A stretch of 41,963 bases of DNA from Candidatus Bathyarchaeota archaeon (GTDB taxonomy: Archaea; Thermoproteota; Bathyarchaeia; 40CM-2-53-6; RBG-13-38-9), in NCBI GenBank assembly GCA_026015185.1, contig JAOZGX010000036.1, positions 1-41,963 of the forward strand, in the 5' to 3' direction. Position 1 is the first letter of the stretch. Each line of letters begins with the position of its first letter. A program made the position numbers and the translations under genes. This document shows positions 584-41,652 of the stretch, one piece after another. A model generated the notes under the pieces. The model did no database searches and was not told the origin of the DNA. It worked only from the letters and a program-made list of their open reading frames with translations.

Positions 584-1639
584 TTATTTTTGAATAGTCT
601 CATAAAGTGTAATTACATTCTCTACTGGTACATGTTGGTCAACTGTATGACAAGGAGCCAATATAAGTCCTCCATCGAAACCAAGGGTTTCTATTCTATC
701 CAATACTTCCTTCTTAACCTCACTAGTACTTCCAAAGGGAAGGGTCTTCTGTAGAGATATAGTTCCATGAAAAGCAATTTTCTCCCCATATAATTTTTTG
801 ATTTTTATAGGGTCCATACATTCAGGTTGTATAGGATTCAAGATATCTATTCCTGCATCTATTAAATCAGGAATTATCGGCTCAACATTTCCGTCTGTAT
901 GAAACATAACGAAAACATCCTTCTTTTTCAACTCTCCAAACCATTTTCGATATCTTGGAATGAAAAATTTGCGTATAATATCTGGCGATAACATTAGACC
1001 TGTCTGCATACCTAGATCATCAGACAGAAAAATCATATCGACTCCGATGTCAGCAAAATATTTGTCCTGTTCAATTTTCCATTCTAAAAGCCTATCTAAT
1101 AACCTCTCTATGAATTTTTGATTTGTATATAGGTCTCGAATAAAATTCCTATAACCCCTAAGAGCCCATCCATGTTCAAATAACCCTATGGAACCATTTC
1201 CAGAAATGAAGTATTCGTCTTTAAACTCTTTAACAAGATCGCTGGCTCTATCAAATCTACCTGGTGCATGAATATTTGGAAATTCAAACTCGTCCAGCTC
1301 TACATGTTCTAATGGGTGATGTGTAAAATGCCAATACTCATCTGTCGATCCAGCTTTACGCTTAATATTCCACTCATCCCATACTGTTGCATAAAAATTC
1401 TCAAAATCCTTTGAAATATTTTGGACAGCAAGCACCTTCTCAGGCTCAAATCCTTTTGGTGGATCCATAGCTACTTGCCTGATATCTGTTCCTAGAGCTT
1501 TGAGAATATCCTCGTTATTTTCTGTATTGAAATGATCATGTAATTTTATCCAGAACTCAGGCCTAAACCATCCATCTGCTGGAATTCTGTCAAAATCTCG
1601 CCTTTCAATTGATGCTAAAACCCTTTCTCTGGATTTCAT
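584..1639 (-). CDS. URO-D-type corrinoid methyltransferase
   Basis: This 351-residue protein belongs to the uroporphyrinogen decarboxylase/MtaA superfamily, whose members move methyl groups to or from a corrinoid protein. The body shows the family TIM-barrel landmarks SDDLGMQTG, MFHTDGN (His247), PIQPE and LAPCHT (Cys330) near the C-terminus. In zinc-dependent MtaA/MtbA enzymes the ligands come from HxC and a distal Cys; here HxC is HTD, so His and distal Cys are kept but the middle Cys is not. I place the start at the ATG at 1639, eight bases after the stop of the upstream corrinoid gene and behind GGTGA; a TTG at 1660 overlapping that gene is the alternative. Coupling to the corrinoid gene argues that the two proteins are partners. 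The substrate is unknown. It is not expected to make haem. Confidence 0.85.
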   Translation of the reverse strand: MKSRERVLASIERRDFDRIPADGWFRPEFWIKLHDHFNTENNEDILKALGTDIRQVAMDPPKGFEPEKVLAVQNISKDFENFYATVWDEWNIKRKAGSTDEYWHFTHHPLEHVELDEFEFPNIHAPGRFDRASDLVKEFKDEYFISGNGSIGLFEHGWALRGYRNFIRDLYTNQKFIERLLDRLLEWKIEQDKYFADIGVDMIFLSDDLGMQTGLMLSPDIIRKFFIPRYRKWFGELKKKDVFVMFHTDGNVEPIIPDLIDAGIDILNPIQPECMDPIKIKKLYGEKIAFHGTISLQKTLPFGSTSEVKKEVLDRIETLGFDGGLILAPCHTVDQHVPVENVITLYETIQK

Positions 1640-1647
1640 CGTTTCAA

Positions 1648-2271
1648 TCACTTCACCCAAGACTTGATTATGTTTACACCTTCTACCGCATTGTTTACGG
1701 CTGCATCTAAGCCAAGCTTGTTTGCATATTCCTCTCTTACCGCTGCACCACCAGCAATGAGCTTAACCCTATCTCTTATACCTGCCTCTTTCAATGACTT
1801 GTCTACTTCTTCTAATGTTGGCACAGTAACTGATAGTAACGCAGATACGCCTACAATTTTCGCATTAGTACTTTTTGCTTTTTCGGCAAAAACCTTCGGT
1901 GGGACATCTATTCCTAAATCTAACACTTCAAATCCAGCTGATATAAGCAATGTAGAAACTATATCTTTTCCAATGTCATGTAAATCTCCTTTGATGGTTC
2001 CAAGAATAATTTTTCCTTTTCTACCGAATTCTGATACTTCGAGCTTTGGTTTCAAAATTTTCAATGCTTCTTTCATTGTTTCGCCTGCCATTATAAGTTC
2101 TGAAAAGAAATAATCTCCGCTCTCAAATTTTAACCCGACTTCTTCCATACCTTTCCCAAGAATGTTTAGTAAATCATTTGGAGATGAACCCTTTTCTAAC
2201 TCGCTTTCAACAATGTTGGCTATATCTTCAATTTTTAGCTCAACAATTGCCTTCTTGACATCTTCTAACAT
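1648..2271 (-). CDS. Corrinoid (B12-binding) methyl carrier protein
   Basis: This 207-residue protein has the two-part MtaC/MtbC/MttC architecture: a helical cap domain (about residues 1-80, with SELIMAGETM) and a Rossmann-like cobalamin domain (about 86-207). The B12 signature DLHDIG lies at residues 96-101, with His98 as the expected lower axial cobalt ligand; VGVSALLS and the glycine-rich IAGGAAV complete the domain. Such proteins shuttle a methyl group between a substrate-specific methyltransferase and an acceptor. It starts at ATG 2271 behind GAGGT (2279-2283), with an A/T-rich TATA candidate around 2327-2336. It is the first gene of a two-gene operon with the methyltransferase. A second, similar but distinct pair lies at 24647-26431. 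The carrier role is well supported; the substrate is not shown. Confidence 0.92.
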   Translation of the reverse strand: MLEDVKKAIVELKIEDIANIVESELEKGSSPNDLLNILGKGMEEVGLKFESGDYFFSELIMAGETMKEALKILKPKLEVSEFGRKGKIILGTIKGDLHDIGKDIVSTLLISAGFEVLDLGIDVPPKVFAEKAKSTNAKIVGVSALLSVTVPTLEEVDKSLKEAGIRDRVKLIAGGAAVREEYANKLGLDAAVNNAVEGVNIIKSWVK

Positions 2272-2376: not shown

Positions 2377-3510
2377 TTATTTATCTTTAGGAAGCAAAAA
2401 TGTTAGAATTCCTGCAACAAAAATGAAAGCTATGGGAATAAAAAGCGATTGTTGTAAACCGAATCGGTCAGCAAATCCTCCAATAATTATAGGCGATACA
2501 ATTGCTCCGACTCCTCCTATACCTGAAACAAAACCCACATTAGCACTCAAAGCCTCCCTCGGAACTATATCACTCAGCATTGTAAATAGTATTGGAAATC
2601 CTAGGAAGATAAAGAATCCAGATAAGCCTAACCCTATCAGGGAAAGAGGTGGAGTAGTAATAAGAAACGCTAAGAAGCTTACACTCGTTCCAAACGAGCT
2701 TATCGCAAAAACCTTACGTCTACCTATATGATCTGATAAGTGTCCTCCTATTGGCTGTGTTACCAAACCTGCAATCATCATTATAAAAACAGATGCACCA
2801 CTCCAAATAAGATCAGCTTGAAAAACATTTACGAATAAAGTTGGAATAAAGCTTACAGTTCCATAAAAGAAAGCTTTCCTTAGAATAGAAATTATTGTAA
2901 GAATTATTATAATCGGTCCTATTGTCTTAAATATGAAACTTTTTTCTACAGCTGTGTTTATTTCTTGAAGGAAAATTAAGGCCATTAAGCTTACTATGAC
3001 ACCTGCAAATAGAATAAACCATAAAGAGAATTTTAATCCATAGAGGCTAGCAATCATAGAGGTTAATAAAGGGAAAAAGGCTCGTCCAGCACTACCGCCA
3101 AAGCCATGTATCCCCATACTCAATCCACGCCTTTCTCTTATAGAATATCCAATAAACGCTACACCCTCGGGATGATAGATACTATATCCTAATCCTGCTG
3201 CAAATGCTGTGGAAATCATAAGAGTGAGATTATTAGCATATTGCATCAGAAAAAGAGATAATGTAAATATGAACAATCCGCCGCATAAATAGAGCTTTTT
3301 TCTACCAGTTATATCAGAAGCGTATCCGGCAATGGGTTGAAGAAATGAAGAGGAAATGGTATAGCTTGCGATTATGAGCCCCATTTGATAGAAGGAGAGT
3401 GATAATTTCTCAACAATTATAGGAAGGATTACAGGTAGCACCATATCTAGTCCATCGTTAACAAAATGTGTTGTGGAAAGAGTTCCTAATAGTACACTGC
3501 GATATTTCAT
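2377..3510 (-). CDS. MFS transporter, fosmidomycin-resistance-like
   Basis: About 377 residues with 12 predicted hydrophobic segments. The N-terminus (STTHFVNDGLDMVLPVILP) and the first cytoplasmic loop (YASDITGRKK) match the Fsr-like branch of the major facilitator superfamily; the second half repeats the loop as LSDHIGRRK, as expected from MFS internal duplication. It is an inner-membrane secondary carrier, probably proton-coupled; the substrate cannot be read from sequence. I place the start at ATG 3510; a TTG at 3525 would add five residues but leaves almost no space to the upstream GGTGA. It sits alone on the minus strand between the corrinoid gene and the ferritin cluster, without evident operon partners. 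Confidence 0.85.
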   Translation of the reverse strand: MKYRSVLLGTLSTTHFVNDGLDMVLPVILPIIVEKLSLSFYQMGLIIASYTISSSFLQPIAGYASDITGRKKLYLCGGLFIFTLSLFLMQYANNLTLMISTAFAAGLGYSIYHPEGVAFIGYSIRERRGLSMGIHGFGGSAGRAFFPLLTSMIASLYGLKFSLWFILFAGVIVSLMALIFLQEINTAVEKSFIFKTIGPIIIILTIISILRKAFFYGTVSFIPTLFVNVFQADLIWSGASVFIMMIAGLVTQPIGGHLSDHIGRRKVFAISSFGTSVSFLAFLITTPPLSLIGLGLSGFFIFLGFPILFTMLSDIVPREALSANVGFVSGIGGVGAIVSPIIIGGFADRFGLQQSLFIPIAFIFVAGILTFLLPKDK

Positions 3511-3617
3511 AGCGAAAGTAAACAATCACCATCTAAAATAAGGTTAACGAAAAACTCAATAAGATATGCTCATCTTTAGCGTTATCAGAATATTTTTGAT
3601 GCAAGCGTTAATCGTTT

Positions 3618-24000: not shown

Positions 24001-24167
24001 TACGAATATCACCCATTAATTCTATATGACAAAAATTATCTAGAATATAGCATTAATATGATTTCGATAAAAATTGATCAATTGAATGAGAGTATTAAAA
24101 GTTGGTTGTAATAGGATTTACATACTCTTATTTGCGATTTTTTGTATTTATATGAGGTTTGATTAAA

Positions 24168-24563
24168 TTGGTTAAGAAGAAGTATATTTTCAAGCCAGAG
24201 GACTACGTAGACGCACCCATTCCAAAGATGGGAAAGATGACTAGAAAGATGATAATCGACTCCAGTACTGTTGACGCTAAAGAGCTAACATTCCTTTATG
24301 GAAGATACGACCCAGATGCTGTTGGTGGAGACTATGAGAAGAAATGTTCACATCCAAACGCTGAAGAGATTATCTATATCACCGGCGGTAAAGGATACGT
24401 AGGCATCACCGATAAAGAATTTTTAGTCGAGAAAGGAGATACTATTTGGGTTCCTAAAAAAGCGGTTCACTGGATGTATAATCCGTTTGATAAGCCATTT
24501 GAGATGCTCACAATCTACTCACGAGCTTCACTTAAAGAAGCAGGTTTAGTAGTTCACGAGTAA
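24168..24563 (+). CDS. Cupin domain protein
   Basis: A 131-residue single-domain cupin. The first metal motif is H-x-N-A-E-E-I-I-Y-I-x-G-G-K-G (CSHPNAEEIIYITGGKG, His and Glu present), and the second is KGDTIWVPKKAVHWMYNP (His near the end). This barrel binds a divalent metal and can act as an isomerase, dioxygenase or sensor. The start is TTG 24168, nine bases after GAGGT; the TTG at 24159 is too close. It lies 83 bases upstream of the second corrinoid/methyltransferase pair on the same strand and could be an accessory enzyme for their substrate; this is inferred from position only. Confidence 0.85.
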   Translation: MVKKKYIFKPEDYVDAPIPKMGKMTRKMIIDSSTVDAKELTFLYGRYDPDAVGGDYEKKCSHPNAEEIIYITGGKGYVGITDKEFLVEKGDTIWVPKKAVHWMYNPFDKPFEMLTIYSRASLKEAGLVVHE

Positions 24564-24646: not shown

Positions 24647-25285
24647 ATGATTAATGATTTTGAGAATTCTATAATCAATCTCGATATCGAAAAAGCAATT
24701 CAATATTGTAAGGAGTTAATTGAGTCAGGTCAAGCTGAACCAATCGATATTCTGAAAACAATAAGTAGAGCACTAGATGTCGTTGGGCAGAAATATGAAG
24801 AGAAAGAATACTTCCTTTCAGAGCTGATCATGGCAGGGGAAATTGTGAATGAATTATTGAAAATTATAGATCCTCTATATAAGAGAGATGAAAGCACTAG
24901 AGTTGCAACAATCGTTTTGGCTTCAGTTAAAGGAGATCTGCACGATATCGGTAAGAATATCCTGGGGATGCTTTTACGATCATCTAACTTTAATGTAATA
25001 GATTTGGGAACTGATGTCGATTCTAATGAAATCGTTAAAGCTGTAAAGGAAAATGAAGCTGATTTTGTAGGATTATCTGCCCTGCTTACTACAACGATAC
25101 ATGAGTTCGGGCATATAGTTGAAGATTTCGATAAAGCAGGCATACGTAATAAGGTGAAGATAATCGTTGGGGGTTCAGCAGTAAATGAAGATGTTGCTGG
25201 AAAATACCATGTTGACGGATGGGGAAAAACAGCAGTGGAAGGAGTGAGGATATGTCGGCAGTGGGCTAAGCAGGGAGGAGATTGA
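24647..25285 (+). CDS. Corrinoid (B12-binding) methyl carrier protein
   Basis: A 212-residue paralogue of the carrier at 1648-2271: helical cap domain (about 1-78, with SELIMAGEIV) and cobalamin domain with DLHDIG at 97-102 (His99 as axial ligand), then VGLSALLTTT and IVGGSAVN. It should carry a methyl group on cobalt between methyltransferases. The ATG start at 24647 has only a weak ribosome site. Its stop TGA is directly followed by the ATG of the methyltransferase gene, behind GGAGGAGATTGA, which makes translational coupling and a functional pair nearly certain. The two carriers in this window are clearly related but differ at many positions. Confidence 0.92.
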   Translation: MINDFENSIINLDIEKAIQYCKELIESGQAEPIDILKTISRALDVVGQKYEEKEYFLSELIMAGEIVNELLKIIDPLYKRDESTRVATIVLASVKGDLHDIGKNILGMLLRSSNFNVIDLGTDVDSNEIVKAVKENEADFVGLSALLTTTIHEFGHIVEDFDKAGIRNKVKIIVGGSAVNEDVAGKYHVDGWGKTAVEGVRICRQWAKQGGD

Positions 25286-26431
25286 ATGAATCACAAGGAA
25301 CGGTTCCTTACAGCGTTAGACTTGAAAGAAGCTGATTGCGTACCCGTTACTGACCTGGGGCTAGATGCTCCTATCGTGGATAAAATCTTACAGAGAGAGA
25401 AAGGTACTGGATTAAGCAAGGCTGGTAAAACTGTATTAAGTTTCACTGGGGGAAGCGAAAATTGGGACGCCTCAATAGACTACAGGCGTTCTATGATTGA
25501 GGCCTGTATTAAGCTTGATTTTGATGCTATTCCAGCTTTATGTGATTATTCGCTTACAACTAAGGATTATAAACCCAAAAATATCGATGATAAAAAGTTC
25601 ATCGATCAATGGGGGCGAATAATGCAAACAAGCATAGAAGGAAAAACGACCTATTTCATGGACGGAGTTGTGCATACGCCTGAGGATTTAGAAGTCTATG
25701 AACCGCCAGATGCTTTTCATCCTGATATCATCGAAATGATGAATGAAACTTTGAAACCTTTTAAGAACGAAGATATCGTTCCAATGGCTCAATGCCATAG
25801 CGGTTGGCATCTTGCATTTCAGATTAGAGGTGGAATAGATAAGATAGCTATTGATTTTTATCGAAACCCAAAATTTGCGCGTGCTCTTTTCGATAAGATC
25901 TCAAAAATTTGTCAAGATTTTGCAGAGTCGATGATAGAAGCTGGAGCAGAGGTACTACTTGTTACTGATGATTATGCTGATAATCATGGACCTTTAATTA
26001 GTCCTAAGCTTTTCAGAGAATATGAACTTCCTAACTTACAGAAGATAGTTAATATAGCAAAGAAACATGGGATTCCGATAATAAAGCACACTGATGGCAA
26101 CCTCAATCCTATCCTAGATGACATAATTAGCACTGGGATAGATGGATTGCATCCAATTGAGCCTGGTGTTATGGATATAAAGGACGTTAAGATGAAATAC
26201 GGAAATAAGATCTGTATATTGGGAAACGTTGACTGTAGATACATATTACCTTTTGGCAGTGATGATGATGTTAGAAAAGACGTTCGAAGATGTATAGATG
26301 CGGCTGGTGAAGGTGGTGGATATATTTTAGCCTCTAGTAATTCATTGCATGCTAATGTTAAAATCGATAATATTTATACAATGGTTGATGAAACCAGAAA
26401 ATATGGCAAATATCCATTAACAAAAAAATAA
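25286..26431 (+). CDS. URO-D-type corrinoid methyltransferase
   Basis: A 381-residue member of the uroporphyrinogen decarboxylase/methyltransferase family, partner of the corrinoid protein encoded immediately before it. It shares the barrel landmarks TDDYADNHGPLISP, IIKHTDGN (His268), LHPIEPG and ILGNVDCRYILPFG with the first copy (584-1639). The distal zinc cysteine is not there: the matching segment is LASSNSLHAN (Ser350, Ser351, Ser353). With Asp in place of the middle cysteine too, a classical H-x-C...C zinc site is not available, so methyl transfer may use another mode, as suggested for demethylase relatives. Start ATG 25286 with GGAGGAG. The substrate is unknown; a methoxylated or N-methyl compound is a guess. 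Confidence 0.87.
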   Translation: MNHKERFLTALDLKEADCVPVTDLGLDAPIVDKILQREKGTGLSKAGKTVLSFTGGSENWDASIDYRRSMIEACIKLDFDAIPALCDYSLTTKDYKPKNIDDKKFIDQWGRIMQTSIEGKTTYFMDGVVHTPEDLEVYEPPDAFHPDIIEMMNETLKPFKNEDIVPMAQCHSGWHLAFQIRGGIDKIAIDFYRNPKFARALFDKISKICQDFAESMIEAGAEVLLVTDDYADNHGPLISPKLFREYELPNLQKIVNIAKKHGIPIIKHTDGNLNPILDDIISTGIDGLHPIEPGVMDIKDVKMKYGNKICILGNVDCRYILPFGSDDDVRKDVRRCIDAAGEGGGYILASSNSLHANVKIDNIYTMVDETRKYGKYPLTKK

Positions 26432-32888: not shown

Positions 32889-34487
32889 TTAAGGTTCTTT
32901 AAAAAGCGGATTGTCTTGGACATAACTTTTTCCTGTCACCAAAGCTTCTCTTGCTTTTGATAATTCAATTCCTAAATAAAATGAATGTTCGGCTTTAGAG
33001 ATCAAATCTCTTTTCAATACCTCTTGATACAAGTTGAATGGATCTTTTGCTTTTAGAATAATATCTGGTTTGAAATCCTTTGATTTAAGATGGATGGCTA
33101 CAATCTTTTCATTCTTTCTATCTATCATTATTTTAAAACTGCCTTTGGGATCATGAACATTTACTAAGCTATGTTTAAATTTTTCAAATTTTTCAATATC
33201 TAACTCAAACTTATCGTCGTAGAGTTCCTCGATCCTTCGTTTTTCTTTTAATCTGAGTAAGTCCAATCCTAAATCTTTAGGCGGACTTTTTCTGATTTTA
33301 GATAGGACAGCCATATCTATTGCCGTCGAGACCTCTTTAACACATCCGCGAGTTTTATCACTTGCTTCTGTAACAAGCACTATACTAGCTTTTAACTCTG
33401 TAGCTAAAGATGCAAGTAAAAGATTCGCACCTAGAGAATCACAATCTATTAACTCTGTAACATTACCTAAACCGAAAAGAATGGGAATTTTTGGCACTTT
33501 TTCAAAAAATTCATAATATCCTATTATCGAATCCATTAGACCTGGATTGAAGGGTGATTTTAGAATAGGATCCGCGATAATCTTCTTAAATCCGATTTTT
33601 TTAGCAACATCTAAGTTCTGTGTTAGTTGCTCCACTCTTTCAGAGACTTTCTCTGAGCATGCCCCACTTTTATTAACTGGAGTAACAACAACTGGAATGT
33701 TGAGTGCAAATTTCGATATATCTTCCATATTTTGTGCATTAATACTTAAGATTAGATCTATTCCTTCATTAACTGCTACTTCTATTTCATCTACGTCACT
33801 CGTATCGATGCTAATAGGAGTGTTAACTGCTTTTCTTACAATCTTTATTATTCTTTTGACTTGATTTGGATCGCTATCTTCTGATAGCATACCGATATCT
33901 ATGATGTCTGCTCCTGATTGAACAAAATATTTGGCCGTTTCTAAAATCTTTGAATTTGTTAATAATGACGCATTTACTATTTCTGCAAGAATACGAGGTC
34001 CAAACTCTCTGTCTATCCAAAACTTGTTTGAATTATTTCCAATTGGAATTCCAATACCCGCTTTGATTTTATTCTTTTCTTGCTCCTTAAATTTAACAAG
34101 TTCACCTAGGATTAGCCTCTTTAATTTCTTAGTCATCAATTCACAAGCTGGAATTGTAGTGGATAATTCATCCTCACCTAAATTATTCAAGACAAACGGT
34201 AAATCAGCTGCATATTTGGGTCCTTTATATACAGGTATTTCTATCTCAGCGGTAATTATTTTTGAATCTCCAAATGCTAATCCAGGAATAATTATAAAAT
34301 CAATATTTTTTAGATTCTTGGATTTTAGAGATTTGGCTATGAATTTTGTATTCATAAGTGCAGCTACTTGTATTGGCAATGATATTACTTGTGATTGTAC
34401 ATTGCACTTAGATACATATTCTTCTACTACTTCGTAGGCTAAAGTTCCTGTAATGATTAGCAATTTTTTTTTGGATAGGGGATTCAA
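32889..34487 (-). CDS. Dihydropteroate-synthase-like protein, H4MPT pathway
   Basis: A 532-residue protein of the archaeal DHPS-related family (as in MJ0301): an N-terminal domain of about 150 residues (KKLLIITGTLAYEVVEEYV ... IIPGLAFGD), a DHPS-like TIM barrel (about 170-420, with ADIIDIGMLSED, PISIDTSDVDE and ILVTEASDKTRG), and a C-terminal domain. In methanopterin synthesis it would join the hydroxymethylpterin diphosphate to the ribofuranosyl aminobenzene/phenol unit. It starts with TTG 34487, two bases after the stop of the RFAP synthase gene, so it belongs to the same operon. Its position next to RFAP synthase supports the role strongly. Confidence 0.93.
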   Translation of the reverse strand: MNPLSKKKLLIITGTLAYEVVEEYVSKCNVQSQVISLPIQVAALMNTKFIAKSLKSKNLKNIDFIIIPGLAFGDSKIITAEIEIPVYKGPKYAADLPFVLNNLGEDELSTTIPACELMTKKLKRLILGELVKFKEQEKNKIKAGIGIPIGNNSNKFWIDREFGPRILAEIVNASLLTNSKILETAKYFVQSGADIIDIGMLSEDSDPNQVKRIIKIVRKAVNTPISIDTSDVDEIEVAVNEGIDLILSINAQNMEDISKFALNIPVVVTPVNKSGACSEKVSERVEQLTQNLDVAKKIGFKKIIADPILKSPFNPGLMDSIIGYYEFFEKVPKIPILFGLGNVTELIDCDSLGANLLLASLATELKASIVLVTEASDKTRGCVKEVSTAIDMAVLSKIRKSPPKDLGLDLLRLKEKRRIEELYDDKFELDIEKFEKFKHSLVNVHDPKGSFKIMIDRKNEKIVAIHLKSKDFKPDIILKAKDPFNLYQEVLKRDLISKAEHSFYLGIELSKAREALVTGKSYVQDNPLFKEP

Positions 34488-34489
34488 TT

Positions 34490-35476
34490 TTATTCATCTA
34501 TCTCTAATTCATGTCCTTTATTATTCGCCTCTGAATAGAAGACCTCTCCTCCATTAAATTCATCTTCAAGATAGCTTCTAATCGTAGTTGAAAGTTTTCT
34601 TGCTTCTGTGACTCCTTCTACGATTCCATAAGTTGTAGGTCCAAAAGAACTTTGACCCACTCCATAAGCTCCATTATTTTTCATTAATTTTATGCATGCT
34701 TTTGTTGTTGAATGCATTAAATCACTTGTTGATTTTGCAAAACCTAATTCTTCGAGAGCTGAAATACCAGAGCCGAAATCTTCAATATCTTCTTCTAAAA
34801 TCGCTGGAAGTATCTTCATTAAAATTAATCTGCACATTTCTCCCACTTCTTGAGGAGGAATGGGACACCTTTCTTCAAATATTCTTACTTCCTTTCGTCC
34901 ATGCAAGCCTTTTTGAATATTTGGTATTGCAATTACAAATTTCCAATTTGTTGGAAATTTATATCGCATTAGAATCGGAGGCGGAGGTAATTTCGAAATA
35001 CTAGAAGGTACAAAAATATTTTCTCTTTTTATTGTCTTGAGACTGTGGCCTCCATCTAAAATAAATCCACCAGTCTGAAATGCAGCCGTACCTATTCCAG
35101 ATGTCCCTCCTCGGCCCATTATTTCGGCTAGTTGTCTTGTGCTCAATTCAATTTTATGTAATCTTGATAAAGCACTTCCAATACCTAGATAACCTTGTGT
35201 GGTAGAACCCAATCCAACATGTCTTGGTATTGTTTTCAGAATTTTTATAGTTACTTTTTCCTTCAAATTGAAATGGTTATAGAAAATTATGGCTGCTTTT
35301 TCGAATAATTCGGTTTGTTCTCCATGCACTTCTAATTCCTTACTTGGAGTAACCTCAAGTTCATAATTGGGAAAATTAAGTGCTAAACCTATACTACCAT
35401 TTATTCTGTTAAGCGAACCATTCATATCTATTAATGAGAAATGAAGTCTTGAAGGTGTTTTAACTGATACTCGCAC
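34490..35476 (-). CDS. Beta-ribofuranosylaminobenzene 5'-phosphate synthase
   Basis: A 328-residue GHMP-superfamily protein of the beta-RFAP synthase family, the committed step of tetrahydromethanopterin synthesis (PRPP plus p-hydroxy- or p-aminobenzoate). The N-terminus VKTPSRLHFSLIDMNG and the glycine-rich loop PRHVGLGSTTQGYLGIGSA (84-102) are family hallmarks; GRGGTSGIGTAAF follows. Start GTG 35476, seven bases after GGAGG, overlapping the DUF447 gene by 17 bases. It is the middle gene of the three-gene operon DUF447, RFAP synthase, DHPS-like. Confidence 0.94.
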   Translation of the reverse strand: MRVSVKTPSRLHFSLIDMNGSLNRINGSIGLALNFPNYELEVTPSKELEVHGEQTELFEKAAIIFYNHFNLKEKVTIKILKTIPRHVGLGSTTQGYLGIGSALSRLHKIELSTRQLAEIMGRGGTSGIGTAAFQTGGFILDGGHSLKTIKRENIFVPSSISKLPPPPILMRYKFPTNWKFVIAIPNIQKGLHGRKEVRIFEERCPIPPQEVGEMCRLILMKILPAILEEDIEDFGSGISALEELGFAKSTSDLMHSTTKACIKLMKNNGAYGVGQSSFGPTTYGIVEGVTEARKLSTTIRSYLEDEFNGGEVFYSEANNKGHELEIDE

Positions 35477-36119
35477 TGTTTTTCCTCCATTTCTCGCATT
35501 GGTTTATCAAGTCTTGCATAATTTTTGAATAAATAGAATTGGATGATACTCTTTTTATGAGGTTTTCATAATGCTTAACTAATGCTAGTAATTCATCTGC
35601 TTTTTCATACTCTCTCTCAGCAACAAATACTTTGATTCTTGTAGTATGTATTATCGATTCTATAGTCGCGAACAATGCTCTTGTGTAAGGTATTGATTTT
35701 ACATCGTTTTTTTCAATGTGAATTATTCTACACTTGAAAATGGTTTTTGTTTTAGTTTCCTCTATTACTTCAACTAAAAACTCCAAGTTGAAATTGGCCT
35801 CTCTAATAAGAGGTGCTTGGACTTTATGTGACTTTTGAAATGTAATTTTAGATAGCATTCTTTCAGGATTTTCTTCTTTTAGTGCAGTATAATAGAAAAC
35901 CTCAGCATCGTATGTAACGTTGGCTACTCCACATTTATGATCTATTAAATTTTGAAGAGTTTTTGAACCTTTATACATTTCAAGTTGAAATTTGTCTGGA
36001 TCTAGAAATTTTAAACCCATAGGTGCAGCGTTAGGCTTTTTATTCAAGTCATATGTGGATACTATTACTTCGTATATGCATCTATTTACTAAGTTTAAGT
36101 AGTCTATCTGCAATTCCAT
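35460..36119 (-). CDS. DUF447 protein, linked to H4MPT synthesis
   Basis: A 219-residue protein with a flavin-reductase-like split barrel (YEVIVSTYDLNKKPNAAPMGLKFLDPDKF; KGSKTLQNLIDHKCGVANVTYDAEVFYY) and a helical C-terminus. DUF447 genes are found beside RFAP synthase and H4MPT genes in archaea and in methylotrophic bacteria, so a part in H4MPT or its precursor is implied; the exact reaction is unproven. Start ATG 36119. Its 3' end overlaps the RFAP synthase start, indicating translational coupling. Confidence 0.9.
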   Translation of the reverse strand: MELQIDYLNLVNRCIYEVIVSTYDLNKKPNAAPMGLKFLDPDKFQLEMYKGSKTLQNLIDHKCGVANVTYDAEVFYYTALKEENPERMLSKITFQKSHKVQAPLIREANFNLEFLVEVIEETKTKTIFKCRIIHIEKNDVKSIPYTRALFATIESIIHTTRIKVFVAEREYEKADELLALVKHYENLIKRVSSNSIYSKIMQDLINQCEKWRKNSASIS

Positions 36120-39766: not shown

Positions 39767-41473
39767 TTAGTGATTATTTTTATGCTTGTCTCTCTTTAGT
39801 AGGATACTAGAGATTATGCATGCGAAACTTATCAAAGCAAAGTATGGCAATAATATTATCAAATCATTCATAGGAATCAGAACGCCACCAACTACACTAC
39901 TTGTGCGTACGCGTTTAACTGGAAAACCTGGTCCTCCTTGATCTACAATAATACTGTTCACTTCGTTATCATCATCACCTAAATCACCATCAGTGATTGT
40001 GAGGGTCAGGATGTTATCACCGTCGTTACTGCCCATCAATGAGGTGACGTCGATCCATCCTTCAGGCTCATGGTACTTCCAGTACTCTGTTTTAATGTCT
40101 GAAGGAAACGTAATTGTTACTGTAGCTGAAGCACCAGGGGTTAAGCCTATTATTTTGAAGCTGAAGAAGCCGTGCGGAAATCTGAGATCTGGTTTTCCAG
40201 CAGTTGGAAGGTTACTTTCATCCACTGCTTCCAAATCCGCTAAAGCATATGGTTCTTCTACGTCGAAGAAGACGTTACCTGAACCCGTGGTAGAGGCAGT
40301 CACTTGCTCAGGCATATATCTGAGATGCGGATACGTCACGTCTTCACCAATACACCAGATATCAGCAAAGTCCCAGATAACGAACGTAGCCTGTTGCTTC
40401 AACTCATCCGTCGTCTTTCCTGTTCCACCATCGGACCATGTCATGCCAGAAGTGTCTTTGTCCCAGTAGCAAAGGATAATATCACCAAGATAATTGACCC
40501 CTGCAAATCCACCCATAAATTTAACTCCATTAACGCTTCCATTGGAGTAGCAATGGGCAATTTTACCCTCATCATTTACTGCTACAAATCCGCCCACAGG
40601 TTGAATACCACTGACGTTACCAGTAGAGTAGCAGTCAGTAATTTTGCCATACCAGATTGTTTCCTCCCCATTCTGTCCTGCAAACCCACCTACAAAACCT
40701 TCACTATTGACACTACCAGTCGAGTAACATTTACTAATTGCACCATCATTGCCTCCTACAAATCCACCTACAGTAGTTGAACCGTTGACGCTTCCAGTGG
40801 AGTAGCAACTTGTAATTGTATCAAAATCATCGACTCCCACAAACCCCCCCACAGCATAGTCACCACGAACGCCACTAGAAGAGTGGCAATTGGTAATCAC
40901 ACCAAAATCATCATTCTTTCCTACAAATCCTCCTACAGAATCATCTCCACTGACACTTCCAGCGGAGTAACAGTTAGTAATCGTACTATAAAGATAATTT
41001 TTTCCTACAAATCCACCCACCAAATAACGGCCACTAACATTTCCCATCGAGTAGCAATCACTAATCAAACAATTAAACGTAGAACTAGCCTCACACTTTC
41101 CTACCAGTCCACCTACATTATCTCTACCCGTTACATCGATGTCTACAAGTCCTACGTTTTTCACTTCTGCACCGCCGGTAATATGTCCAAACAAGCCCAC
41201 ATAGTCTTCACCGGTTCTGTTAATGTAGAGGTTGCTAATCACGTAGCCTTGACCATCGAAGTGACCCGCAAAAGCAAAAGGCCAGAATTCCCACTGTCCA
41301 ATGGGGGCGAAGCCTAAACCACCATTCCATGTTAACGTTTCAGAAGCATCAATGTCATTACCCAATATGTAATATGCATCCAAATCGTCTTCCATCGCTT
41401 GCAGATGCTCCACCGTCGTAATGACGTACGGATTACCCGGGGAACCATCACCTCCACTGAACGCCCCTACCAT
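39767..41473 (-). CDS. GLUG-repeat surface protein with anchor-U domain
   Basis: A 568-residue protein counted from ATG 41473. The start FSGGDGSPGNPYVITTVEHL is the usual head of GLUG-type adhesins; about nine GLUG repeats follow (core VGGFVG, with SCYSTGSV between), then a domain with LTPGASATVTITFPSDIKTE and LTITDGDLGDDD that matches the choice-of-anchor U domain, and a C-terminal membrane helix with a basic tail (KRDKHKNNH). This is a cell-surface protein that could bind glycans or other cells. No signal peptide is present in this frame: the start ATG overlaps the stop of a membrane-helix fragment (TGATG). A frameless GTG at 41536 would give an unlikely start. Composition is visibly G/C-richer than average. 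Confidence 0.83.
   Translation of the reverse strand: MVGAFSGGDGSPGNPYVITTVEHLQAMEDDLDAYYILGNDIDASETLTWNGGLGFAPIGQWEFWPFAFAGHFDGQGYVISNLYINRTGEDYVGLFGHITGGAEVKNVGLVDIDVTGRDNVGGLVGKCEASSTFNCLISDCYSMGNVSGRYLVGGFVGKNYLYSTITNCYSAGSVSGDDSVGGFVGKNDDFGVITNCHSSSGVRGDYAVGGFVGVDDFDTITSCYSTGSVNGSTTVGGFVGGNDGAISKCYSTGSVNSEGFVGGFAGQNGEETIWYGKITDCYSTGNVSGIQPVGGFVAVNDEGKIAHCYSNGSVNGVKFMGGFAGVNYLGDIILCYWDKDTSGMTWSDGGTGKTTDELKQQATFVIWDFADIWCIGEDVTYPHLRYMPEQVTASTTGSGNVFFDVEEPYALADLEAVDESNLPTAGKPDLRFPHGFFSFKIIGLTPGASATVTITFPSDIKTEYWKYHEPEGWIDVTSLMGSNDGDNILTLTITDGDLGDDDNEVNSIIVDQGGPGFPVKRVRTSSVVGGVLIPMNDLIILLPYFALISFACIISSILLKRDKHKNNH
40472..41203 (-). repeat. GLUG repeat region
   Basis: Nine degenerate units of about 24-37 residues, each with a V/M-G-G-F-V/A-G core, e.g. 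VGGLVGK, VGGFVGK (twice), VGGFVGV, VGGFVGG, VGGFAGQ, VGGFVAV, MGGFAGV and an initial VGLFG. It is a protein-level repeat; the DNA copies have diverged, so no recent amplification is indicated. Confidence 0.85.
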
Positions 41474-41652
41474 CAGAAATCCAGAACTAGAATATAGACT
41501 GCCAAATGACTTGTATAGTAAACATTTTCTCGCCACCAGGGATCGTAGAAACCTAACGAGAAAGCGATATCGACAAAGAATTGATAGACTATTGCAGAAA
41601 CAATTCCAGCAATTAGCCCAGATACAGCACCAATCTTTAGAGATTTATCCAT
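41473..41652 (-). pseudogene. Truncated paralogue of the four-helix membrane protein
   Basis: A 59-residue frame from ATG 41652 to TGA 41473. MDKSLKIGAVSGLIAGIVSA parallels the start of the cassette protein at 20838-21248 (GIRSGAIAGVVAGIVGV), with one helix and then VDIAFSLGFYDPWWRE. The second half, with the conserved WIG-x-IKD region, is lost. It starts seven bases after the stop of the next paralogue and its TGA overlaps the GLUG start. It may be a decayed gene or, less likely, supply an N-terminal helix to the GLUG protein by a frameshift. Confidence 0.6.

Follow-up and report, generated by a model that had tools for sequence, protein, structure and literature searches.

The window analysed here is a stretch of 41,963 nucleotides, contig C36 of a bathyarchaeal MAG of 1,808,448 bases (118 contigs, 96.6% complete, 2.59% estimated contamination), and it carries two gene pairs, each made up of a corrinoid (B12) carrier protein and a URO-D-fold protein predicted to be a methyltransferase. 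Pair 1 lies on the minus strand. Its carrier (1648-2271, 207 aa) contains the Pfam domains B12-binding_2 (8.6e-17) and B12-binding (1.1e-20), conserves all positions of the DLHDIG, SxL and GG motifs, and matches TIGR02370 at 9.6e-54, under that model's cut-off. The stop codon of the carrier gene (1648-1650) is separated by 8 nt from the ATG of MT1 (584-1639, minus strand; URO-D 1.2e-22), a protein of 351 aa from this ATG with the motif HTDGN...PCH; an alternative TTG start, at which the listed frame begins, is found at 1660. Pair 2 lies on the plus strand and consists of a carrier of 212 aa (24647-25285; B12-binding 3.7e-26, B12-binding_2 1.2e-12; DLHDIG) and MT2 of 381 aa (25286-26431; URO-D 9.9e-41), the TGA stop of the carrier gene directly abutting the MT2 ATG, with GGAGG just upstream. 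A sequence-only reading of this DNA had described two tightly coupled corrinoid/URO-D pairs with DLHDIG carriers in opposite orientation; the Pfam domains, at levels far beyond chance, the coordinates and the junctions all agree with that description.

An MFS transporter gene (2377-3525, minus strand; MFS_1 6.7e-44) is located 105 nt upstream of pair 1 on the same strand, and a small cupin protein (24159-24563, plus strand; Cupin_2 8.5e-13) is encoded 83 nt before the pair 2 carrier, also on the same strand. The former is possibly an uptake protein for pair 1 and the latter possibly an accessory of pair 2, both links being unproven; no MFS transporter was seen beside the pair 1 counterparts in the relatives G115 and G004. 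The H4MPT-synthesis genes that had been recognised in the window were confirmed as a block at 32889-36119 on the minus strand, encoding a dihydropteroate-synthase-like protein (TIGR00284, 362.9 bits, cut-off 256.7), a beta-RFAP synthase (NF040726, 340 bits, cut-off 328) and a DUF447 protein (DUF447_N, 3e-23). Scans for sigma-70 promoters and terminators gave no excess over shuffled sequences. Near the end of the window (39767-41536, minus strand) a 589-aa protein with many similar internal segments is encoded, by eye probably a surface protein.

The Pfam name URO-D and a fold common to HemE could be taken to mean that MT1 and MT2 are uroporphyrinogen decarboxylases or inactive relatives of them, a reading we find hardly credible: MT1 has no match to the HemE model TIGR01464 and MT2 reaches 50.6 bits against a cut-off of 303, the MRQAGR motif of E. 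coli HemE is found in neither protein, both genes are paired with those of corrinoid proteins, and a place inside the true uroporphyrinogen decarboxylases is rejected by the AU test (p 6.6e-5 for MT1, 0.003 for MT2). In the AlphaFold2 models (pLDDT 93 for MT1 and 90 for MT2) the predicted fold is non-discriminating, the best PDB match being MtaA (4ay8; TM 0.74/0.77 for MT1, 0.72/0.80 for MT2) and HemE the next. In a URO-D tree of 38 rows, in which the MtaA and CdmB rows are C-terminal fragments only, a single 28-row clade (99/96) takes in every one of the seven URO-D proteins that the genome encodes and excludes HemE, CmuA+MtaA and the group formed by CdmB and archaeal homologues of it. Within this clade MT2 belongs to a 9-row clade (100/99) and MT1 to a 19-row clade (99/97). 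A single origin of the pairs, with MT1 and MT2 as one clade, was rejected (AU p 1.8e-40); judged by these alignments, the pairs are two deeply separated clades and not variants of one system. Inside its own clade MT1 is separated from G115, L112 and L128 in the best tree, and a grouping with them is not rejected (p 0.088).

Since the closest structure is MtaA and the best NCBIfam profiles of both proteins are the MtaA/CmuA ones, MT1 and MT2 might be thought to act on the acceptor side as MT-II enzymes, using a thiol as methyl acceptor in the way that MtaA and MtbA use coenzyme M. However, all MtaA/MtbA/CmuA scores are far under cut-off (for TIGR01463, 67.6 for MT1 and 76.7 for MT2, cut-off 235.4), and a grouping with MtaA+CmuA is rejected for both proteins (AU p 0.0002). 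The HxC...C of MtaA and CmuA, presumably a metal signature, is replaced by HxD...H in MT1 and HxD...N in MT2, and the loss of the Cys ligands argues against thiol methylation. Thus MT1 and MT2 share a fold with the soluble CoM methyltransferases MtaA/MtbA and CmuA and differ from them in active site, clade and the absence of Mcr from the genome; an MT-II role appears very unlikely. H247 is present in all of 50 MT1-type proteins, with D249 and H331 conserved in more than 90%, and nine MT2-type proteins all have H268, D270 and C317; these conserved residues are putative metal ligands.

A third reading takes the pairs for O-demethylases of aromatic compounds, of the MtoB/MtvB type, which would use the methoxyl groups of lignin; such use has been proposed for other Bathyarchaeia. 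The layout and fold are alike, a CdmB fragment search found CdmB/MtoB-like proteins in 14 of 151 relatives, and lignin-linked growth has been published for another bathyarchaeon, according to the available part of PMC10989822. In this genome, however, none of the seven URO-D candidates scored matches the CdmB fragment at 1e-10, the motif is HxDG in MT1 and MT2 vs mostly FxEG in the MtoB/CdmB-like proteins, and membership of the MtoB/CdmB-like clade is rejected (AU p 0.0006 for MT1, 0.0005 for MT2), a clade whose name rests on the CdmB fragment because genuine MtoB, MtvB and OdmB were left out of the tree. We consider this reading improbable. A placement within true uroporphyrinogen decarboxylases, which the sequence-only reading had named as grounds for refutation, is thus rejected, and MT1 and MT2 fall outside the MtaA/CmuA and MtoB/CdmB-like groups as well.

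The same early reading had reported no MttB/MtbB-type, MtrH or RamA-like gene in the window, and none of the genome's matches lies there; whole-genome profile searches gave a single MttB match (contig C9), a single MtrH match (C68) and a single RACo_C_ter match (C56). The apparent absence of acceptor and activator is a window effect. The MtrH protein is over the TIGR01114 cut-off (327 vs 271.4 bits) and scores 319.9 against the MtgA (methylcorrinoid:H4F) model, the cut-off of which is 550. Fer2, Raco_middle and RACo_C_ter domains were recognised in the RACo protein, whose scores stay under the subfamily cut-offs for AcsV and RamA. With 482 aa and no internal stop, the MttB homologue scores 487 of the 525 needed and has its own corrinoid protein. 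The CODH/ACS subunits CdhA, CdhC, CdhD and CdhE are above their cut-offs, and the whole-genome profile search gave 0 MCR_alpha matches. The searches also gave seven URO-D and seven B12-binding_2 matches; the DLHDIG, S/L and GG columns are invariant across the seven carriers and correspond to DxHxxG...SxL...GG, which we take to be the base-off cobalamin-binding motif of such proteins. By gene content, then, the genome appears to hold the parts of a three-component system, namely carriers with the base-off motif, MtrH as a putative MT-II and a RACo-type activator.

Because these partners are present once each on other contigs, we propose that each pair is probably the substrate half of a three-component corrinoid system, the two halves sharing one MtrH and one activator. 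MT1 and MT2 would act as MT-I enzymes: each would demethylate a substrate of its own and methylate the Co(I) form of its cognate carrier. Methyl groups on either carrier would then be transferred to H4MPT by the single MtrH, and carriers that have slipped to Co(II) would be re-reduced by the single RACo-type protein. As the CODH/ACS is of the H4MPT type and Mcr is absent, methyl-H4MPT would be converted to acetyl-CoA or oxidised rather than yield methane. Against this proposal, neither MtrH nor the activator is linked to a pair, and both are encoded on short contigs of a MAG whose estimated contamination is 2.59%. A route from a methylated compound to methyl-H4MPT, considered likely from the window alone, gains support from the one MtrH, the one RACo-type activator, CdhA/C/D/E and the lack of Mcr. 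Sediments are rich in Bathyarchaeia, which are suspected of methylotrophic acetogenesis; here the window supplies two candidate MT-I types with carriers, and the genome supplies the likely shared MtrH and activator. That a non-methanogenic bathyarchaeon holds a methyl-entry module is well supported; it would work like the Mto system.

Core MetE enzymes reportedly use methylcobalamin, which we counted in favour of the opposite, biosynthetic direction, in which methyl groups would run from methyl-H4MPT through MtrH and the carriers to a methylated product. Such a reading of carrier and MtrH couples was raised for Bathy-6 in the portion of PMC7886697 at hand. Against it, several URO-D/carrier pairs per genome would fit many substrates better than many products, and transporters adjoin some pairs; we give the biosynthetic direction only a small chance.

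The proposal that each carrier serves its own methyltransferase was compared with the relationships of both partners. In a tree of 39 carriers the pair 1 carrier groups with those of G004, G115, L112 and L128 (100/99), each of which lies beside an MT1 homologue (46% identity in G115 and 61% in G004, where the gene is interrupted in the assembly), and the pair 2 carrier is joined at 100/99 by the one from G003, which is encoded next to an MT2 orthologue of 68% identity. Carrier and methyltransferase thus share nearest relatives in both pairs, and the pairs look inherited as units. The 62% MT2 orthologue of G115 has no adjoining carrier, which counts against strict coupling. The neighbours of these MT2 relatives disagree: in G003 (L097:10987-15043) the genes upstream of the orthologue and carrier encode an Asp/Glu racemase-like protein and a membrane-like protein of 490 aa that has no Pfam match, and in G115 (L098:6038-9560) the orthologue adjoins an aldehyde ferredoxin oxidoreductase and a 4Fe-4S ferredoxin.

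Co-occurrence was scored in 139 genomes, i.e. the 151 searched less 12 having HemE-like matches only, as judged from bit scores. Non-HemE URO-D proteins and carriers occur together in 46 genomes, URO-D proteins only in 18, carriers only in 17 and neither in 58 (Fisher p 8e-9, uncorrected for kinship). Carrier presence rises with URO-D copy number, from 17 of 75 genomes with no copy to 12 of 28 with one or two and 34 of 36 with three or more. The 18 of 64 URO-D relatives without a carrier match include G057 (12 copies) and G133 (four copies), so that some URO-D proteins may dispense with a carrier.

Several known systems resemble the one proposed. The Mto system of Methermicoccus shengliensis (MtoABCD), in the accessible text of PMC8630106, likewise has a URO-D MT-I, a small carrier, an MtrH-like MT-II (MtoA) that leads to a pterin, and a reductive activator; there the genes form one operon specific for methoxylated aromatics, whereas here the MT-II and activator are unlinked and single-copy, and MT1 and MT2 fall outside the MtoB/CdmB-like clade. 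The chloromethane system CdmBCA, as far as PMC13222342 was available, also combines a URO-D MT-I with a separate carrier, but CdmB is without the HxD motif and belongs to a different clade. URO-D MT-I clades with unknown substrates already appear in the tree legend of that partly available paper, and therefore uncharacterised clades of this kind are as such not new. The type 1 mlp clusters, as presented in the obtainable part of PMC10418091, share URO-D methyltransferases and a carrier with our pairs; in these clusters several Mlps, which branch with enzymes of the MtaA type, are encoded together with an activator. Each pair here has one URO-D protein and one carrier, and the window holds no activator, in place of the Mlp2+Mlp3, carrier and activator in one cluster that define the type.

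Within the Bathyarchaeia, methyl flow into H4MPT and CODH/ACS was proposed for the Bathy-6 carrier and MtrH couple (PMC7886697, consulted portion); the MT-I is unidentified there, while the present window encodes candidates for two MT-I types, each paired with a carrier of its own. Corrinoid O-demethylation was also described, in the available text of PMC10989822, for MtgB of Ca. Baizosediminiarchaeum, a protein of about 300 aa without homology to known MT1, which is set apart by its description only from the URO-D proteins of 351 and 381 aa reported here. Mtr remnants are treated in PMC9635834, and further related work is found in PMC11264602 and PMC8407382, the three being available in part. 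To this body of work the present analysis adds two particular corrinoid/URO-D pairs, whose methyltransferases fall in separate clades and look co-inherited with their carriers, together with the contigs that encode the partners they probably have in common.

MT1 matches were found in 22 of the 151 searched genomes, its own included, at 1e-30, and MT2 matches in 15 of 151 at 1e-40; the MT2 clade was met in archaeal relatives, to which its search was confined. An MT1-family profile scan of contigs confirmed at least 567 relatives, of which 80 were kept, from archaea and many bacterial phyla, so that the substrate of one member would inform many genomes. A carrier lies near the URO-D gene in eight of the 80 kept loci, a count lowered by misses at contig ends and in overlapping ORFs. 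Among the genomes whose locus showed no adjacent carrier, 50 of the 70 listed were searched further; 46 of these have a TIGR02370 match at 1e-20, as a stand-alone carrier frame of at most 310 aa in 44 and as longer frames only in two, and four have none. When the carrier regions of 20 of these genomes were fetched, the carrier was recovered as an ORF in 16, with a RamA-like gene within three genes in seven, MttB in three and URO-D in one. A plasmid search returned five records, every one below 60% identity and one of them CmuA.

The substrate lead for MT1 comes from gene neighbourhoods in bacteria; neither this genome nor its archaeal relatives contribute to it. From 50 of 62 bacterial MT1 loci 133 co-oriented genes were collected, of which 120 were used (13 were dropped for extreme length or shortness), and 120 of the 178 genes of the same loci outside the co-oriented run served as control. 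Peripla_BP_4, BPD_transp_2 and BPD_transp_1 were counted 10, 8 and 8 times among the neighbours and 2, 2 and at most 2 times in the control, a sugar-transporter enrichment that is weak because transporters cluster in operons anyway. Some loci (L127, L134, L135, L156 and L164) combine an ABC transporter and sugar genes with a carrier and a URO-D gene (names assigned by eye). A sugar context in archaea was considered and dropped, as 69 archaeal neighbour proteins (65 of 88 plus four from L060) gave five GFO_IDH_MocA and four Radical_SAM matches and no clear theme. Our best guess, a tentative one, is that MT1 demethylates an alkyl methyl ether such as an O-methylated sugar. A wider and more speculative proposal, which we regard as rather doubtful, is that the large MT1 family (HxDG...PxH), which extends over several archaeal lineages besides the many bacterial phyla, consists of O-demethylases that depend on corrinoid and act on methyl ethers of carbohydrates or on other alkyl methyl ethers, and that this bathyarchaeon couples MT1, together with MT2 from a second, archaeal family, to H4MPT-based acetyl-CoA synthesis; if so, anaerobes would have in the methoxyl groups of methylated polysaccharides a C1 source that has been overlooked. 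Nothing on the combination of methyl sugars and corrinoid was found in the literature searched.

Other arrangements were noted in passing. On contig C9 (L018:5219-10838) the corrinoid protein and MttB homologue are accompanied by cupin-like and flavodoxin-like genes (by eye) and by a URO-D protein with an HxC...H motif. On C104 (L022:7299-8676) a DUF166 protein and the seventh corrinoid protein follow the CODH/ACS genes, and on C56 (L025:5168-7656) the end of a further DUF166 gene abuts the RACo activator gene; a role of DUF166 in corrinoid or CODH/ACS upkeep is possible. In two relatives of pair 1 (L057:7225-11495 and L128:6366-10654) consecutive genes encode a carrier, two URO-D proteins in tandem and a glycerate-kinase-like protein (DUF4147/MOFRL), and at an acidobacterial locus (L230:2414-9470) a carrier and a RamA-like activator are surrounded by four URO-D genes.
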